This document shows, piece after piece, positions 24,468 through 33,220 of a stretch of DNA of 64,000 nucleotides (position 1 is its first letter; the number at the start of each line of letters is the position of its first letter). A model generated the notes under the pieces. That model saw only the letters and a program-made list of their open reading frames with translations. It ran no database searches and had not been told where the DNA came from. Origin of the DNA: an archaeon (GTDB lineage: Archaea > Thermoproteota > Nitrososphaeria > Nitrososphaerales > Gagatemarchaeaceae); contig CP066694.1 in NCBI GenBank assembly GCA_016432545.1, forward strand, positions 310,001 through 374,000, read 5' to 3'. The position numbers were made by a program, and so were the translations under genes.

Positions 24468-25379
24468 ATGATCGGAGTCGCTGGCGCTGGGAAGGTCGGG
24501 GCCCAGGCCGCCCTCGAGATCGCCTCGATGGGGCTCGATGACATCACTCTCGTGGACATAGTGCCGGGCCTCGCAGAAGGGGAAGCGCTCGACATCAGCC
24601 ACAGGCTCTCCGACGCGGGGGTCGACGTCAAGGTAACAGGTTCTAACGACTTCTCCGCACTCGCCGGCTCGTCCCTTGTGATCGTGGCCGCGGGCTTGGG
24701 GCGGAAGCCGGGCATGACCAGAATGGACCTCCTCTCGAAGAACTCTGGCATCATTTCCTCGGTGTCAAAGGAAGTCGCAAAGCACGCGCCTGAATCGGTC
24801 CTTCTGATGGTCACGAATCCCATGGACGCCATGACCTTCGTGGCGCTCAAAGCCTCAGGATTTCCAAAGTCCCGGGTAGTCGGCCAGGGGGGAGTCCTGG
24901 ACAACTCCAGGTTCAAGTACGTGCTCTCAAAGAAACTTGGAGTCTCAAGGGGCTCGATCACCTCGCTGGTCATGGGCGAACACGGCGAGAACATGATCCC
25001 TGTCTCCAGCCACACGTACGTTGGCGGGGTCCCCCTGGCGAGCCTCCTCACCGACGACGAGATCCAACAGGCCATCGCAGACACGAGGCAGGTGGCCGCC
25101 GAGGTAATCTCCAAGAAAGGGGCGACGATCTTCGCGCCTGGCAGGGCGGTCGCCCGGATGGCGAAGGCCATCGTTGACGACACCAAGGAGGTCCTGGCAG
25201 CGTCAGCGTATCTCGAAGGAGAATACGGGCTCAACGGCCTATGCATAGGCGTCCCGGTCCGCCTGGGCAAGGGTGGCATCGAGAAGGTCTACGAGCTCAA
25301 GCTCTCCGACCGGGAGAGGGATTGGTTCAACAAGGGGGCGGATGCGCTCCGCGAAGCCGTCGCCTCGGTGGCTCTCTAA
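24468..25379 (+). CDS. mdh: Malate dehydrogenase (NAD-dependent)
   Basis: Interconverts malate and oxaloacetate in the citric acid cycle. The 303-residue protein opens directly with the NAD-binding GVAGAGKVGAQ loop, has GRKPGMTRMDLL (malate-type substrate loop), NPMD, and the catalytic MGEHGENMIP histidine. It belongs to the LDH-like tetrameric MDH group common in archaea. Leaderless ATG start 25 nt after the TATA box. Succinyl-CoA synthetase genes at the window end point to a functional cycle. Confidence 0.93.
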   Translation: MIGVAGAGKVGAQAALEIASMGLDDITLVDIVPGLAEGEALDISHRLSDAGVDVKVTGSNDFSALAGSSLVIVAAGLGRKPGMTRMDLLSKNSGIISSVSKEVAKHAPESVLLMVTNPMDAMTFVALKASGFPKSRVVGQGGVLDNSRFKYVLSKKLGVSRGSITSLVMGEHGENMIPVSSHTYVGGVPLASLLTDDEIQQAIADTRQVAAEVISKKGATIFAPGRAVARMAKAIVDDTKEVLAASAYLEGEYGLNGLCIGVPVRLGKGGIEKVYELKLSDRERDWFNKGADALREAVASVAL

Positions 25380-25422: not shown

Positions 25423-26601
25423 TTGCTAATCGTAGTCCTCCTCAAGGGCGTACCTGCGAGGACCACTCAGGTCGTCCAGGTGGGGGGCGCCCTCAACCGC
25501 GAAGCCATGGACCTCGTCCTCAACCCCCACGACGCAAAGGCGGTCGAGGCAGCCGACTTCATCAAGAGAAGGGTAGGCGGCAAGTCGGTGGCGCTTACCA
25601 TGGGCCCGGACATGAAGCTGATCCCTCTGATGAAGCCCCTTTTCGACTCGGAGGTCCTGGGCATCGACGAGGAGTACGTCCTCAGCGACAGGAAGATGGC
25701 CGGCTCCGACACCCTCGCGACCTCTTACGCCGTCTCCCTCGGCGTGAAGAAGCTCGTTGAAAGGCACATCGAGCCTCTCCTCCAGCTCCAGGACTCGATC
25801 AAGCGCACGGGCTACGCCGACTCGGTAAGGGCCCTCGCTTCGAAGCTCTACCGGGCCAACCTGATCCCGAACCGCGTCTACTCGGAGCTCCCCTCAGTGC
25901 GCAACAGCATCATCCACAGGTTCCTGGACGGGGGCACCACCCCCTCTGCCGCGATCGAGGAACTCGAGCGCGAGAAGGATAGGGTATCGCGGTTCGTTGT
26001 AGTCTCCGGGATCAAGACGACAGACGGCGAGACGGGGAGCGTGGGCCCCCAAGTCGCCGAGGGGATATCGGAGCTCCTGGGTAGGTTGGTCCCCCACGCC
26101 ACCTACGTCGAAGACTTCGACGTCCTCCCAGGCGGTTCCTCGATCCTCTCCGAACGCAGCATCGGGAGGATGGTCCAAAAGCTCGAGATGGAGCTGCCTT
26201 CGCTGCTTACGATCTCGACTGAATACCGCCCCCGCGAGCCCGGGACCTTCGACCAGCCAGAGGTCAGGCTCAACAGCTATGCGGGCAAGGTCCAGTTGGC
26301 CACGAAGTGGACGGCCGAAGACCTCGGCGCGGACCCCAAGCGACTCGGCCTCTCAGGCTCTCCCACGATAGTCGGTGCCGGAATCGACATTGGGAAGACG
26401 CCCGTACAGAAGTTCGTAGGAAGGTCCCTAGTCTTTCTAGAGAAGGCCCCCGAGCTCTCTTTGGACGGGAAGAAGTATGGCCCCTTCGAGAAGGGGGACC
26501 TGGCGACGCCCCTTCCCGAGACCCTCTTGGCGGGCCTCAAGTCGGAAGGAAAGGTCGGGCCCTTCTCCTACCCCATGCTGGCCAAGGAGATCTTCTCATG
26601 A
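25423..26601 (+). CDS. etfB: Electron-transfer flavoprotein beta subunit with internal insertion
   Basis: A 392-residue EtfB/FixA protein, much longer than the usual 250-280. The N-terminal LIVVLLKGVPARTTQV, NPHDAKAVEAADF, GSDTLATSYAVSLG and later TTDGETGSVGPQVAEGISELLG blocks match the family. Between the last two there are roughly 75 extra residues (about 118-190), rich in predicted helix and charge. A further C-terminal region (about 330-392) is also longer than usual. TTG start 29 nt after a TATA-like box. It leads an operon with etfA and a FixC-FixX fusion, coupled by ATGA overlap to etfA. The partner dehydrogenase is not in the window. Confidence 0.88.
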   Translation: MLIVVLLKGVPARTTQVVQVGGALNREAMDLVLNPHDAKAVEAADFIKRRVGGKSVALTMGPDMKLIPLMKPLFDSEVLGIDEEYVLSDRKMAGSDTLATSYAVSLGVKKLVERHIEPLLQLQDSIKRTGYADSVRALASKLYRANLIPNRVYSELPSVRNSIIHRFLDGGTTPSAAIEELEREKDRVSRFVVVSGIKTTDGETGSVGPQVAEGISELLGRLVPHATYVEDFDVLPGGSSILSERSIGRMVQKLEMELPSLLTISTEYRPREPGTFDQPEVRLNSYAGKVQLATKWTAEDLGADPKRLGLSGSPTIVGAGIDIGKTPVQKFVGRSLVFLEKAPELSLDGKKYGPFEKGDLATPLPETLLAGLKSEGKVGPFSYPMLAKEIFS

Positions 26602-29976: not shown

Positions 29977-30957
29977 TTGCCTATCCAGGTCCCGAGGATC
30001 ACCCTCCGAGAGGTCAAGGAAGCCAGGGAACGAGTCAACGGCATCATCACCAGGACTCCCCTCGTCCCTGCTTCCAGATTCGAGCAGGGCAGGACACACC
30101 TGAAGCTTGAGTGCCTCCAACCCACCGGGAGCTTCAAGGTCAGGGGGGCGTGGAACAGGATGAGCAGGTCGAGCGCGGACGAAGTCCGCAGGGGCTTCGT
30201 CACTGTCTCCGCAGGAAACCACGGCCAGGCGGTAGCCTGGTGCGCAAGGCGCCTAGGCGCCACGTGCACGGTGTACGTGCCCGATGACGCAGTGCAGAGG
30301 AAGGTCGACTCTATGCAGTCGATGGGCGCCACCCTCGTAAGACGCCCACACCAGGAGATCATGCAGTCCATGACAGACGACCGGATGTCCAGTCTTGGCA
30401 TGACGTTCATCCATCCCTTCGCCGACCCGAGGGTCGTGGCGGGCCAGGGGACCATCGGGCTCGAGATCCTCGACGACCTCCCCGATGTGGCCAGCGTGGT
30501 CGTTCCGGTCGGGGGAGGGGGCCTCGTGAGCGGCATAGCTCAGGCGATCAAGTCTCTGAAGCCGACAACCAAGATCTATGGAGTCCAGGCAGAAGGGGCG
30601 GCTCCCCTACCCAAGTCGCTTCGCTCAGGTAGGTCCGAAGACGTCGGGGACCCCAAGACCATAGCCGACGGGATCGGCGCGACCATGACATACGACTACA
30701 TGCTTCCACTTCTCAGAGAGAACCTCGAATCTGCGTTCACAGTCAGCGACGAAGAGATGTTGAGGGCCATGAGGGAACTAATGTACGAGTCGCACGTCTT
30801 CGCCGAGCCCGCCGGGGCAGCCTCCCTGGCAGCCGCGCGCAAGCACGCAGCAGAGCTCGAAGAGCCAGTCGTGTGCGTCGTGAGCGGCGGGAACGCGGAC
30901 CCGGGCCTGGTTGCCGGCCTCCTGACTCCGGAGAAGCCGAGCCAAGGCAGGGCATGA
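29977..30957 (+). CDS. Threonine/serine dehydratase, PLP fold type II
   Basis: A 326-residue PLP enzyme that removes the amino group of threonine or serine to give 2-oxobutyrate or pyruvate, or possibly racemises serine. Lys54 in TGSFKVRGA is the Schiff-base lysine, SAGNHGQAVAW the substrate loop, and PVGGGGLVSG binds the PLP phosphate. No C-terminal ACT domain, so it is of the catabolic, non-allosteric length. TTG start at 29977, 29 nt from a TATA-like gattatta. It leads a three-gene ATGA-coupled operon with a cyclodeaminase/alanine dehydrogenase homologue and SHMT. Confidence 0.9.
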   Translation: MPIQVPRITLREVKEARERVNGIITRTPLVPASRFEQGRTHLKLECLQPTGSFKVRGAWNRMSRSSADEVRRGFVTVSAGNHGQAVAWCARRLGATCTVYVPDDAVQRKVDSMQSMGATLVRRPHQEIMQSMTDDRMSSLGMTFIHPFADPRVVAGQGTIGLEILDDLPDVASVVVPVGGGGLVSGIAQAIKSLKPTTKIYGVQAEGAAPLPKSLRSGRSEDVGDPKTIADGIGATMTYDYMLPLLRENLESAFTVSDEEMLRAMRELMYESHVFAEPAGAASLAAARKHAAELEEPVVCVVSGGNADPGLVAGLLTPEKPSQGRA

Positions 30958-31982
30958 AGCTCCTCATACTGGGGGCATCCGAGGTCGCAGACCTCCTGAC
31001 CATGCCGAAGTGCATCCAACTGATGCGGGAGACTCTCTCCGCAAGCTCGCTCGGGGAGGCGACCTTCCCACCCAGGCAGGTCATGCCCCTCCGGGGGAAG
31101 GCAGGGGCCCTCGCCCTGATGCCCGGCTACCTCAGAAGCAAGGGCGCGGTCGGCCTGAAGGCAGTCTCCGTCTTTCCGGGGAACCTTGGAACCCTCTTCG
31201 AATCCCACCAGGGGGCCGTCCTCCTCTTCGAGCACCTCAACGGCCGTCTCCTGGCCCTCATGGACGCTGGTTCCATCACCAACATCAGGACCGCGGCAGC
31301 CAGCGCATCCGCGACGGACGTACTCGCGCTGCCCTCGGTGAAGGAGCTCGCGATCCTCGGGTCGGGGACGCAGGCCCTCTGGCACCTCCGCTCAATGCTC
31401 GCAGTCCGTCCCGGAATCAAATCGGTGCGAGTCTGGTCAAGGAATCGAGCAAACGCGGAGCGATTCGCGAAGCGAGCGCGCGAAGAATCCAGCGCCGACG
31501 TGCAGGCTGCTGTGACTGCCGAGGACGCGGTCCGCGGAGCGCGCCTCGTCTGCACCGTGACATCCTCGAGCCTCCCAATCCTCAGGGGGGAATGGGTCGA
31601 ACCAGGGACTCACATCAACGCTGTGGGCGCTTCTCGTCCCTCTTCAAGGGAGCTGGACACGGCCGCAGTGGTGAAGGGGCGCCTCTTCGTGGACAACCTG
31701 GCCTCCGCCCTTTTGGAGGCGGACGACTTTCGCGTGCCGAAGGCCGAAGGAGCGATTGACGACTCTCACATCAGGGGGGAGATAGGCCAAGTGTTCCTCG
31801 GCAAGATTCCCGGCCGCACCGGCCCCGAGGATGTCACCATCTTCAAGTCGCTCGGGCTCGCGGTGGAGGACCTCGCGTCCGCCAACTTCCTGTACCACCT
31901 CGCCGAGGAACGCGGCATGGGAACGTGGGTGGAATTCGGCTCCCAGAGGGAGGGCGATCCCAGGCCCGGGGCTGGGTCATGA
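30954..31982 (+). CDS. Ornithine cyclodeaminase/mu-crystallin family dehydrogenase
   Basis: A 342-residue NAD(P)-binding protein. ATG 30954 overlaps the dehydratase stop (ATGA). FPPRQVMPLRGKAGALALMPGYL, GLKAVSVFPGN, LMDAGSITNIRTAAASA and the Rossmann loop LAILGSGTQALWHL match the family, which contains ornithine cyclodeaminase, archaeal alanine dehydrogenase, ketimine reductase and others. Between dehydratase and SHMT, a role as alanine dehydrogenase acting on pyruvate is reasonable but inferred. It ends in ATGA overlap with the SHMT gene. Confidence 0.85.
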   Translation: MKLLILGASEVADLLTMPKCIQLMRETLSASSLGEATFPPRQVMPLRGKAGALALMPGYLRSKGAVGLKAVSVFPGNLGTLFESHQGAVLLFEHLNGRLLALMDAGSITNIRTAAASASATDVLALPSVKELAILGSGTQALWHLRSMLAVRPGIKSVRVWSRNRANAERFAKRAREESSADVQAAVTAEDAVRGARLVCTVTSSSLPILRGEWVEPGTHINAVGASRPSSRELDTAAVVKGRLFVDNLASALLEADDFRVPKAEGAIDDSHIRGEIGQVFLGKIPGRTGPEDVTIFKSLGLAVEDLASANFLYHLAEERGMGTWVEFGSQREGDPRPGAGS

Positions 31983-33220
31983 AGCCTCGACCCCGCACGA
32001 CAACGACCGCAGAAGACCCTCGATCCCTCCAATACCTGGGGCGCATCGAGCGCGCCGTCAGGCGTCACGAGCAGTGGCGACTGCGCGAGTGCCTGAACCT
32101 CATCCCTTCAGAGAATCACGGGAGCGCAGCTTCCAGGGCGCTCCTATCCTCCGACTTTGGCAACAGGTACAACGCGCCCGACAGGTTCTACCGGGGGACG
32201 AGATACACCGACGAGGTCCTCTCCGTCACAGAGGAGCTGGCCCGCAAGGTCTTCCGCGCAAAGTTCGCTGACGTCAGGCCCCTCTCGGGCCACACCGCCA
32301 ACCTTGCCGTCCTCCTAACCATGGCTCAAAGGGGCGACAGCATTGTCTCTGTCTCCCCAGACGACGGAGGCTACCCCGGAATCTCCCCCCAAGGCCTGGG
32401 GGGTCTCCTAGGTCTCCGGAACCTGTACTTCCCCTTCGACCGAAAGGCCGTCAACATCAAACCAAAGGAGTCAACCGAACAGGCGAAGAAGAGCGACCCG
32501 AGGCTCCTGATCTTCGGCGCGAGCTACATCACCTTCCCTCATCCTCTGGAGTCGGTCTCAACGGGCCCTCGCATAACGAAGGTCTATGACGGGTCGCACG
32601 TACTCGGCCTGATCGCCGGCGGCCAGTTCCAGGACCCTCTCCGGGAGGGGTGCCCCCTGCTCTTCGGCTCGACCCACAAGAGCCTACCGGGCCCCCAGGG
32701 CGGGATTCTCCTCTCGAACGACGAAGATACGTTCCAGGTGTCGTCCAAGATCTTCCCAGGGATAGTCGACAACATCCATCTCAACCGCGTGGCTGCCCTC
32801 GGCGTCGCGCTCCTGGAGATGCTGAAATTCGGCAGAGAGTACGCGGAGCAGATCGTCCAGAACTCTCAGGCCCTAGCCAGAGCCCTCTCCTCACGCGGGG
32901 TCGAGGTCAGGGGAGCCTCGCACGGGTTCACAAAGTCCCACCAGGTCCTCCTCGACTACTCCGAAGCGCGATTCAGGCTGTTGTCGGAGAAGCTGGAACA
33001 GGCGAACATCATCGTAGACGAGGCCGGGCGCATCGGGACGTCCGAGCTCACGCGCATGGGGTACAGAGCCCGGGACATGGAGGAGGTCGCTGAGCTCGTC
33101 TCTCTCGTCGTCCTCGGGAAGGAGCGCCCTGGCTCGGTGAAGAAAAGAGTCAAGCGCCTAGTCGCAGAGTTCCAGGAGCCCAGATTCGTCCTCAGCTCCC
33201 CTCCGGACCGTCTGGCCTAG
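31979..33220 (+). CDS. glyA: Serine hydroxymethyltransferase-family PLP enzyme
   Basis: A 413-residue fold type I PLP enzyme. NLIPSENHGS near 40-49, RPLSGHTANLAVL near 100-112, YDGSHVLGLIAGG and LLFGSTHKSLPGPQGG, with Lys234 as Schiff-base lysine, match archaeal SHMT. The usual Tyr-Gly-Gly tract is replaced by RFYRGTRYTDEV, so it is divergent and could also act as a threonine/serine aldolase. It interconverts serine and glycine and passes a one-carbon unit to the archaeal pterin. ATG at 31979 overlaps the preceding stop. Its 3' end overlaps the convergent GAPDH gene by four bases. Confidence 0.87.
   Translation: MKPRPRTTTTAEDPRSLQYLGRIERAVRRHEQWRLRECLNLIPSENHGSAASRALLSSDFGNRYNAPDRFYRGTRYTDEVLSVTEELARKVFRAKFADVRPLSGHTANLAVLLTMAQRGDSIVSVSPDDGGYPGISPQGLGGLLGLRNLYFPFDRKAVNIKPKESTEQAKKSDPRLLIFGASYITFPHPLESVSTGPRITKVYDGSHVLGLIAGGQFQDPLREGCPLLFGSTHKSLPGPQGGILLSNDEDTFQVSSKIFPGIVDNIHLNRVAALGVALLEMLKFGREYAEQIVQNSQALARALSSRGVEVRGASHGFTKSHQVLLDYSEARFRLLSEKLEQANIIVDEAGRIGTSELTRMGYRARDMEEVAELVSLVVLGKERPGSVKKRVKRLVAEFQEPRFVLSSPPDRLA

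Follow-up and report, generated by a model that had tools for sequence, protein, structure and literature searches.

Within the genome of a soil-type archaeon of the Gagatemarchaeaceae (GenBank assembly GCA_016432545.1, contig CP066694.1), a stretch of 64,000 nucleotides from positions 310,001 to 374,000 of the forward strand, hereafter the window and numbered from its first base, carries adjoining genes for a dehydratase (DH), an ornithine-cyclodeaminase/mu-crystallin family protein (OCD) and a protein similar to serine hydroxymethyltransferase (SHMT), here called SHM. Judged from sequence comparisons, SHM may be a folate-independent L-beta-hydroxy-amino-acid aldolase, most likely acting on threonine, accompanied by a DH/OCD imine module; this reading, of which the descent of the SHM group from an old paralogue of glyA forms a part, is given an even chance of being correct. 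What is observed is the gene order, the loss of pterin features from SHM, the conservation of its pyridoxal phosphate (PLP) core residues and the presence of a canonical glyA alongside. The host genome is a single contig of 1.5 Mb with a completeness of 100. As a preliminary description of this DNA had stated, the three amino acid enzymes are encoded in one direction and ATGA overlaps are present at both the DH/OCD (30954-30957) and OCD/SHM (31979-31982) junctions. The genes lie head to tail on the + strand among the open frames of the window, with matches to PF00291, PF02423 and PF00464. The features concerned are as follows.

29977..30957, + strand: PLP-dependent threonine/serine-type dehydratase (DH), TTG start; PF00291, 273.6 bits
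30954..31982, + strand: ornithine-cyclodeaminase/mu-crystallin family protein (OCD), probable imine (ketimine) reductase; PF02423, 246.8 bits, and nearest structures
31979..33220, + strand: SHMT-derived aldolase-like protein (SHM); PF00464, 114.2 bits, and membership of a group of 54 aligned rows
32159..32203, + strand: SHM loop 1, residues 61-75, with the YAEG Glu and neighbours deleted; alignments
32366..32374, + strand: SHM residues 130-132, GGY for GGH, PLP-stacking His replaced by Tyr; alignments
32678..32680, + strand: SHM Lys234 (STHK), aligned with the PLP-binding lysine; 4uqv alignment, invariant in 14 rows
32999..33043, + strand: SHM loop 2, residues 341-355, lacking about 15 residues relative to canonical SHMT; alignments

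SHM departs from canonical SHMT (GlyA, PF00464) in several features at once. Both in SHM and in the orthologues at all 27 loci sampled from 26 relatives (L041-L067; L068 is another paralogue), the YAEG loop is short by three residues including the Glu, and GGY stands in place of the GGH of GlyA; in a wider alignment, the stretch preceding the R-x-G-T motif comprises 15 residues in the SHM group versus 28-32 in canonical enzymes. The preliminary description had noted a divergent Tyr-Gly-Gly region, and the divergence is real, consisting more precisely of GGY (130-132) for GGH plus the three-residue deletion that removes the YAEG Glu. Its suggestion that such a divergent SHMT might be an aldolase is retained as a reading, SHM having lost part of loop 2 together with the YxEG Glu and the PLP-stacking His. 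K234, D204, H207 and R359 are invariant in 14 rows and align with the Methanocaldococcus jannaschii SHMT 4uqv, the closest solved structure (286.6 bits), which shares the fold family and PLP core. On the NCBIfam SHMT model NF000586, SHM scores 271.4 bits, under the cut-off of 335, whereas the canonical GlyA of the host, serving as a control, passes with 426; bathyarchaeal (321.6) and clostridial (328.2) members of the SHM type fall narrowly short. An AlphaFold model of SHM, with a mean pLDDT of 75.7 and active-site loops partly below 50, was left unused. Asn341 of SHMT is taken by us to sit in the second folate loop. A study of this residue in folate binding is cited in the reference list of PMC3697235. 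According to passages in two further papers, the catalytic Glu of YxEG is Glu53 in the Thermus thermophilus SHMT (PMC10397204), and two loops of ObiH that match the lost loops of SHM are folate-binding regions of SHMTs (PMC10495429).

These differences define a group rather than an isolated gene. The first alignment, which took 52 of 80 loci, omitted a frameshifted copy (L144), three short, partial or broken ones (L189-L191) and copies of rows already included (L192-L202); addition of the other 28 loci gave 97 rows, still without L144. YxEG is kept in 43 of these and lost in 54. In all 43 of the former, GGH or GAH is present and loop 2 spans 28-32 residues, whereas none of the latter has the G[GA]H pattern and 52 have a 15-residue loop 2, the exceptions being L078, which is cut off, and L127 (Clostridium), which has a loop 2 of 22 residues and keeps the His in WGH. 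A single branch splits the two sets, with support of 99/96 in the first tree (69 rows, diagnostic columns kept). A quick tree of all 97 rows, built after removal of the diagnostic columns, gives this branch an SH-aLRT value of 92, short of the 95 that the tool marks with a star; as the roots are midpoint roots, the split on one branch is shown and the ancestral side is not. The group is represented in Nitrososphaerota, Bathyarchaeota, Thermoplasmatota, several Asgard groups, Marsarchaeota, Wolframiiraptor and one Clostridium. Two loci titled 'bacterium' (L069 and L097) carry the divergent archaeal gene form, and the label of L069 is probably wrong, since the whole archaeal block is present there.

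A search for a second, canonical glyA, as the preliminary description had proposed, located one elsewhere in the host genome. Similarly, 19 of the 21 genomes behind divergent loci also hold a canonical-type match (16 at full length, one partial at L189, one broken at L190 and a fragment at L191), with G052 and G057 having only the divergent type. The retention of both paralogues in 19 of 21 genomes points to a distinct, maintained job for SHM. No description of this divergent group was found in the open-access literature searched; SHMT-annotated proteins of the superfamily, among which members of the SHM group may be present, have been tested in PMC10495429.

The L-threonine transaldolases (ObiH, structure 7k34; LipK; fluorothreonine transaldolase) are SHMT-derived like SHM, which matches 7k34 with 131.5 bits, and likewise deviate from SHMT in both loops, as a passage of PMC10495429 indicates. 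By contrast, their PLP-stacking His131, conserved according to parts of PMC8072733 and PMC10495429, is Tyr132 in SHM. On the fluorothreonine transaldolase model (F_threo_transal, TIGR04506), SHM reaches 193.7 bits where the cut-off is 650, the host GlyA scores nearly as much (189.2), and since the model has 609 positions, a one-domain enzyme could hardly reach that cut-off. The L-threonine aldolase LtaE (PF01212) catalyses the reaction proposed for SHM but belongs to a different family; at a threshold of 0.001, Pfam gives SHM no match to PF01212.

As an aldolase of this kind, SHM would be an old glyA paralogue from which the pterin (folate) site has gone. Lys234, Asp204 and His207 would bind PLP, Arg359 would bind the carboxylate of the substrate, and the reaction would most likely interconvert L-threonine with glycine and acetaldehyde. 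DH may take water from threonine or serine to yield a 2-enamine/imine, which OCD could reduce with NAD(P)H before it is hydrolysed, giving 2-aminobutyrate or alanine as the deoxy amino acid; an imine reductase beside a dehydratase can in this way keep nitrogen as an amino acid. Dehydratase and imine reductase are combined by the same logic in BhcB/BhcD, and perhaps in EutB/EutC. The substrates, the direction and the hand-over of an imine from DH to OCD are what we infer from the families and residues involved. If true, the aldolase group would fill a gap in glycine/threonine metabolism, no PF01212 threonine aldolase having been found in the host genome, and would be a source of new folate-independent aldolases. 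Because Pfam files SHM as SHMT, one-carbon supply may be counted double in metabolic models of uncultured archaea.

The neighbouring genes offer the strongest clue to what SHM may do: enzymes of threonine and aldehyde metabolism beside it are what a threonine aldolase would need. Aspartate kinase and homoserine dehydrogenase are encoded near SHM in L058, L060 and L067 (the last two present again as L073 and L074), and an aldo-keto reductase gene lies 3' of SHM on the same strand within 100 bases in L058, L062 and L067 and at 1.2 kb in L060. An aldehyde ferredoxin oxidoreductase gene is found 0.2 kb 5' of SHM in L127 and, on the other strand, 3.1 kb away in L099, where homoserine dehydrogenase is also nearby. 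For the glycine, the host genome has a 370-bit match to the glycine cleavage P-protein. Of its three weak PF01212 matches, two exceed the Pfam cut-off, one being a Cys/Met-metabolism enzyme and the other a DegT-type aminotransferase; as these belong to other PLP families, no threonine aldolase of the PF01212 family was found there.

Several points tell against an aldolase of this specificity. The lost Glu has been argued, in a passage of PMC10397204, to be the base in folate-independent cleavage as well, so its loss might harm that activity too. Aldehyde enzymes are near just eight of 81 SHM loci, or six distinct places (the 81 include the same genomes more than once, from two collections), against none of 26 GlyA loci, which is too few to decide. 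Homoserine dehydrogenase is also near canonical GlyA in four of the 26, so that the threonine link is not specific and was dropped where it rests on this enzyme alone; of the two neighbour hints, the aldehyde side alone is specific, in small numbers. The aldo-keto reductases are a broad family, none of these neighbours occurs in the genus of the window, and aldehyde ferredoxin oxidoreductase was not found in the host genome. Finally, SHM in L103 is near a cysteine-synthase-like PALP gene, which would fit serine too.

That Baldrarchaeote locus (L103:8001-11410) has SHM followed by a ParB-like protein, so named by eye and without a Pfam match, and then the PALP gene. Neighbours of the bathyarchaeal and Thermoplasmata members gave no pathway signal, being housekeeping genes such as a wyosine-formation radical-SAM protein (Pfam, L093) and, by eye, replication factor C and an exosome protein. 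A role in supplying hydroxynorvaline for the tRNA modification hn6A, of which Methanocaldococcus is presumably a maker, was also dropped, as the sole Methanocaldococcus locus seen (L106) holds a canonical SHMT.

The two genes 5' of SHM can be assigned to families more readily than to substrates. The best NCBIfam match of DH is threonine ammonia-lyase TIGR01127, at 264.8 bits without reaching the cut-off of 378.75, and a second dehydratase of the host genome (L007) likewise stays below it at 302.4. DH and seven of seven orthologues share the motif SAGNH, also present in the dehydratases 2gn0 and 8y1j, whereas SSGNH is found in the racemases 6lut and 3hmk. As a rule, a Ser before GNH marks racemases and an Ala L-specific dehydratases. 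DH is at most likely to be L-specific, and the motif does not decide the matter, because SSGNH also occurs in 1ve5, labelled threonine deaminase, which breaks the rule. Among solved structures, OCD is closest to ketimine reductase (195.5 bits) and pyrroline-2-carboxylate reductase (184.2), followed by alanine dehydrogenase (154.0) and, more distantly, BhcD (113.9) and the ornithine cyclodeaminase 1u7h (95.7). An ornithine cyclodeaminase is rejected on account of this distance and of 121.3 bits on NF005762 against a cut-off of 350. Although the pair resembles the EutB/EutC combination of hydroxyectoine use in its families, orthology is rejected for EutB (253.7 against 413, and 216.5 against 413.35 on TIGR02991) and for EutC (151.9 against 471.65 on TIGR02992).

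The OCD name bears on the route put forward in the preliminary description, in which SHMT makes serine from glycine, DH makes pyruvate and OCD forms alanine, so that one-carbon units are linked with the storage of nitrogen. The family names fit this route, and the archaeal alanine dehydrogenase model TIGR02371 gives OCD its third-best NCBIfam score, 219.5 bits. However, the curated cut-off of that model is 409.15 and the ketimine and pyrroline-2-carboxylate reductase structures are closer, so 'alanine dehydrogenase' is not upheld. SHM has lost the YxEG Glu and the second folate loop while a canonical glyA is present, leaving the one-carbon route unsupported at its SHMT step, and the DH-OCD pair is missing from the loci of most relatives. 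This route therefore appears very improbable. The genome paper on Gagatemarchaeaceae (PMC10640624) lists ilvA, alanine dehydrogenase and glycine cleavage, and the term 'hydroxymethyltransferase' does not occur in its main text. A second cyclodeaminase-family gene of the host genome (L002:1453-2406) is convergent end to end with a thermosome-like gene.

The wider locus contains a conserved block, with the following genes on either side of the three enzymes; FixC-FixX is a name given in this analysis.

24468..25379, + strand: malate/lactate dehydrogenase family gene, first of the conserved block; PF00056, PF02866
25423..26601, + strand: electron transfer flavoprotein (ETF) beta-like gene (FixA-like), conserved 5' of SHM; PF01012, 40.1 bits
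26598..27683, + strand: ETF alpha (FixB-like), listed as an open frame from 26307, start chosen at 26598; PF01012, PF00766
27673..29367, + strand: FixC-FixX-like FAD oxidoreductase (FixCX); PF01266/PF12831
29422..29943, + strand: V4R-domain protein, possible regulator or sensor; PF02830, 39.8 bits
33217..34236, - strand: glyceraldehyde-3-phosphate dehydrogenase (GAPDH) family gene, convergent with SHM here and in many relatives' loci; PF02800
34264..35484, - strand: phosphoglycerate kinase (PGK) gene, conserved neighbour; PF00162

In 21 of the 27 relatives' loci, FixCX precedes SHM on the same strand, and in most of the loci long enough to show it, malate/lactate dehydrogenase homologues precede the ETF genes. 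The order FixCX-DH-OCD-SHM recurs in seven loci, making it more than chance, with an eighth (L049) showing OCD cut by the contig end; SHM is without the pair in 19. Loci sharing the block are titled Thaumarchaeota or Nitrososphaerales, a Candidatus Gagatemarchaeum locus being among the near relatives. It is the gene order that is conserved across relatives and not the ATGA overlap: in the seven loci with the pair, no candidate start shares an ATGA with the upstream stop, and the nearest candidate starts are 2-113 bases past that stop, except at the DH-OCD junction of L046, which is unreadable owing to an in-frame stop or frame problem. In a survey of 46 genomes of the family, host included and many incomplete, an SHM match is present in 41 and a copy of at least 55% identity in 30, the remaining listed matches having identities of at most 50% and not being sorted by motif. 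DH at 69% identity or more is found in 10 of the 46, and OCD at 50% or more in 12, host included; every genome with such a DH also has the OCD partner (10/10). Absence of the cluster from relatives had been named in advance as counting against the preliminary description; SHM proves widespread, whereas DH and OCD stand at the locus in a minority. The dehydratase/imine-reductase module thus joins SHM in some Gagatemarchaeaceae-like genomes.

The pair also occurs away from SHM in G012 (L165) and G043 (L166), and is therefore a separable module of its own; G032 has a second pair on a short contig (L167) that starts with a FixCX-like fragment. Among plasmids, the best OCD match (45%, Rhizobium sp. 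BG4) adjoins a DH homologue, with a second pair within the same 13 kb. Such distributions would suit three independent enzymes on a shared transcript, SHM belonging to the malate/lactate dehydrogenase-ETF-FixCX block and the pair being an EutB/EutC-type insertion acting on another substrate, as would the presence of FixCX in 21 loci against the pair in seven and one partial. Nevertheless, in all seven complete cases of a pair within the block, the pair lies directly 5' of SHM, and this explanation is regarded as rather unlikely, if a serious contender.

More doubtful is a reductive aldol pathway resembling the beta-hydroxyaspartate cycle, in which glycine and an aldehyde (glyoxylate or acetaldehyde) would give a beta-hydroxy amino acid that is dehydrated and then reduced to a new amino acid. 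In that cycle, BhcB and BhcD pair a threonine-dehydratase-like enzyme with a cyclodeaminase-family imine reductase, and the DH-OCD pair, with its adjoining aldolase-like gene, is similar in kind. Yet DH scores 205.1 on NF045641 and OCD 158.5 on NF045643, far from the cut-offs of 550 and 500, and orthology was rejected. Furthermore, the pair is apart from SHM in L165 and L166, and SHM without the pair is the commoner arrangement. Glyoxylate from isocitrate lyase was likewise discarded as a doubtful source: the one match, in a 317-residue frame, beats the Pfam cut-off of 26 with 50.1 bits but covers 100 of 526 positions, and is probably a related lyase. The pathway is accordingly considered improbable. 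BhcC, unlike SHM, is not of the SHMT fold, and an archaeal counterpart of the cycle on another aldolase fold, combining an SHMT-fold folate-free aldolase with a dehydratase and an imine reductase, seems slightly less probable still.

A few observations concern single loci. On the Rhizobium sp. BG4 plasmid (L236:1757-7959), the two dehydratase/cyclodeaminase-family pairs have amidohydrolase-like genes, judged by eye, between them. Beside the lone DH-OCD pair of G012 is a gene for a 492-residue protein (L165:7463-8941) that by eye looks like a PLP enzyme, with no Pfam match at 1e-5. The paralogue at L068 (G040:C1:848927-850069) is a third SHMT-family copy of G040, 43% identical to SHM. The V4R-domain protein encoded between FixCX and DH has a weak likeness to the transcription factor MsvR (35.3 bits), and a V4R-domain gene is in the equivalent position in two of the 27 relatives' loci (L044 and L065). 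At the other end of the cluster, the 3' ends of SHM and the convergent GAPDH gene share four bases (33217-33220).

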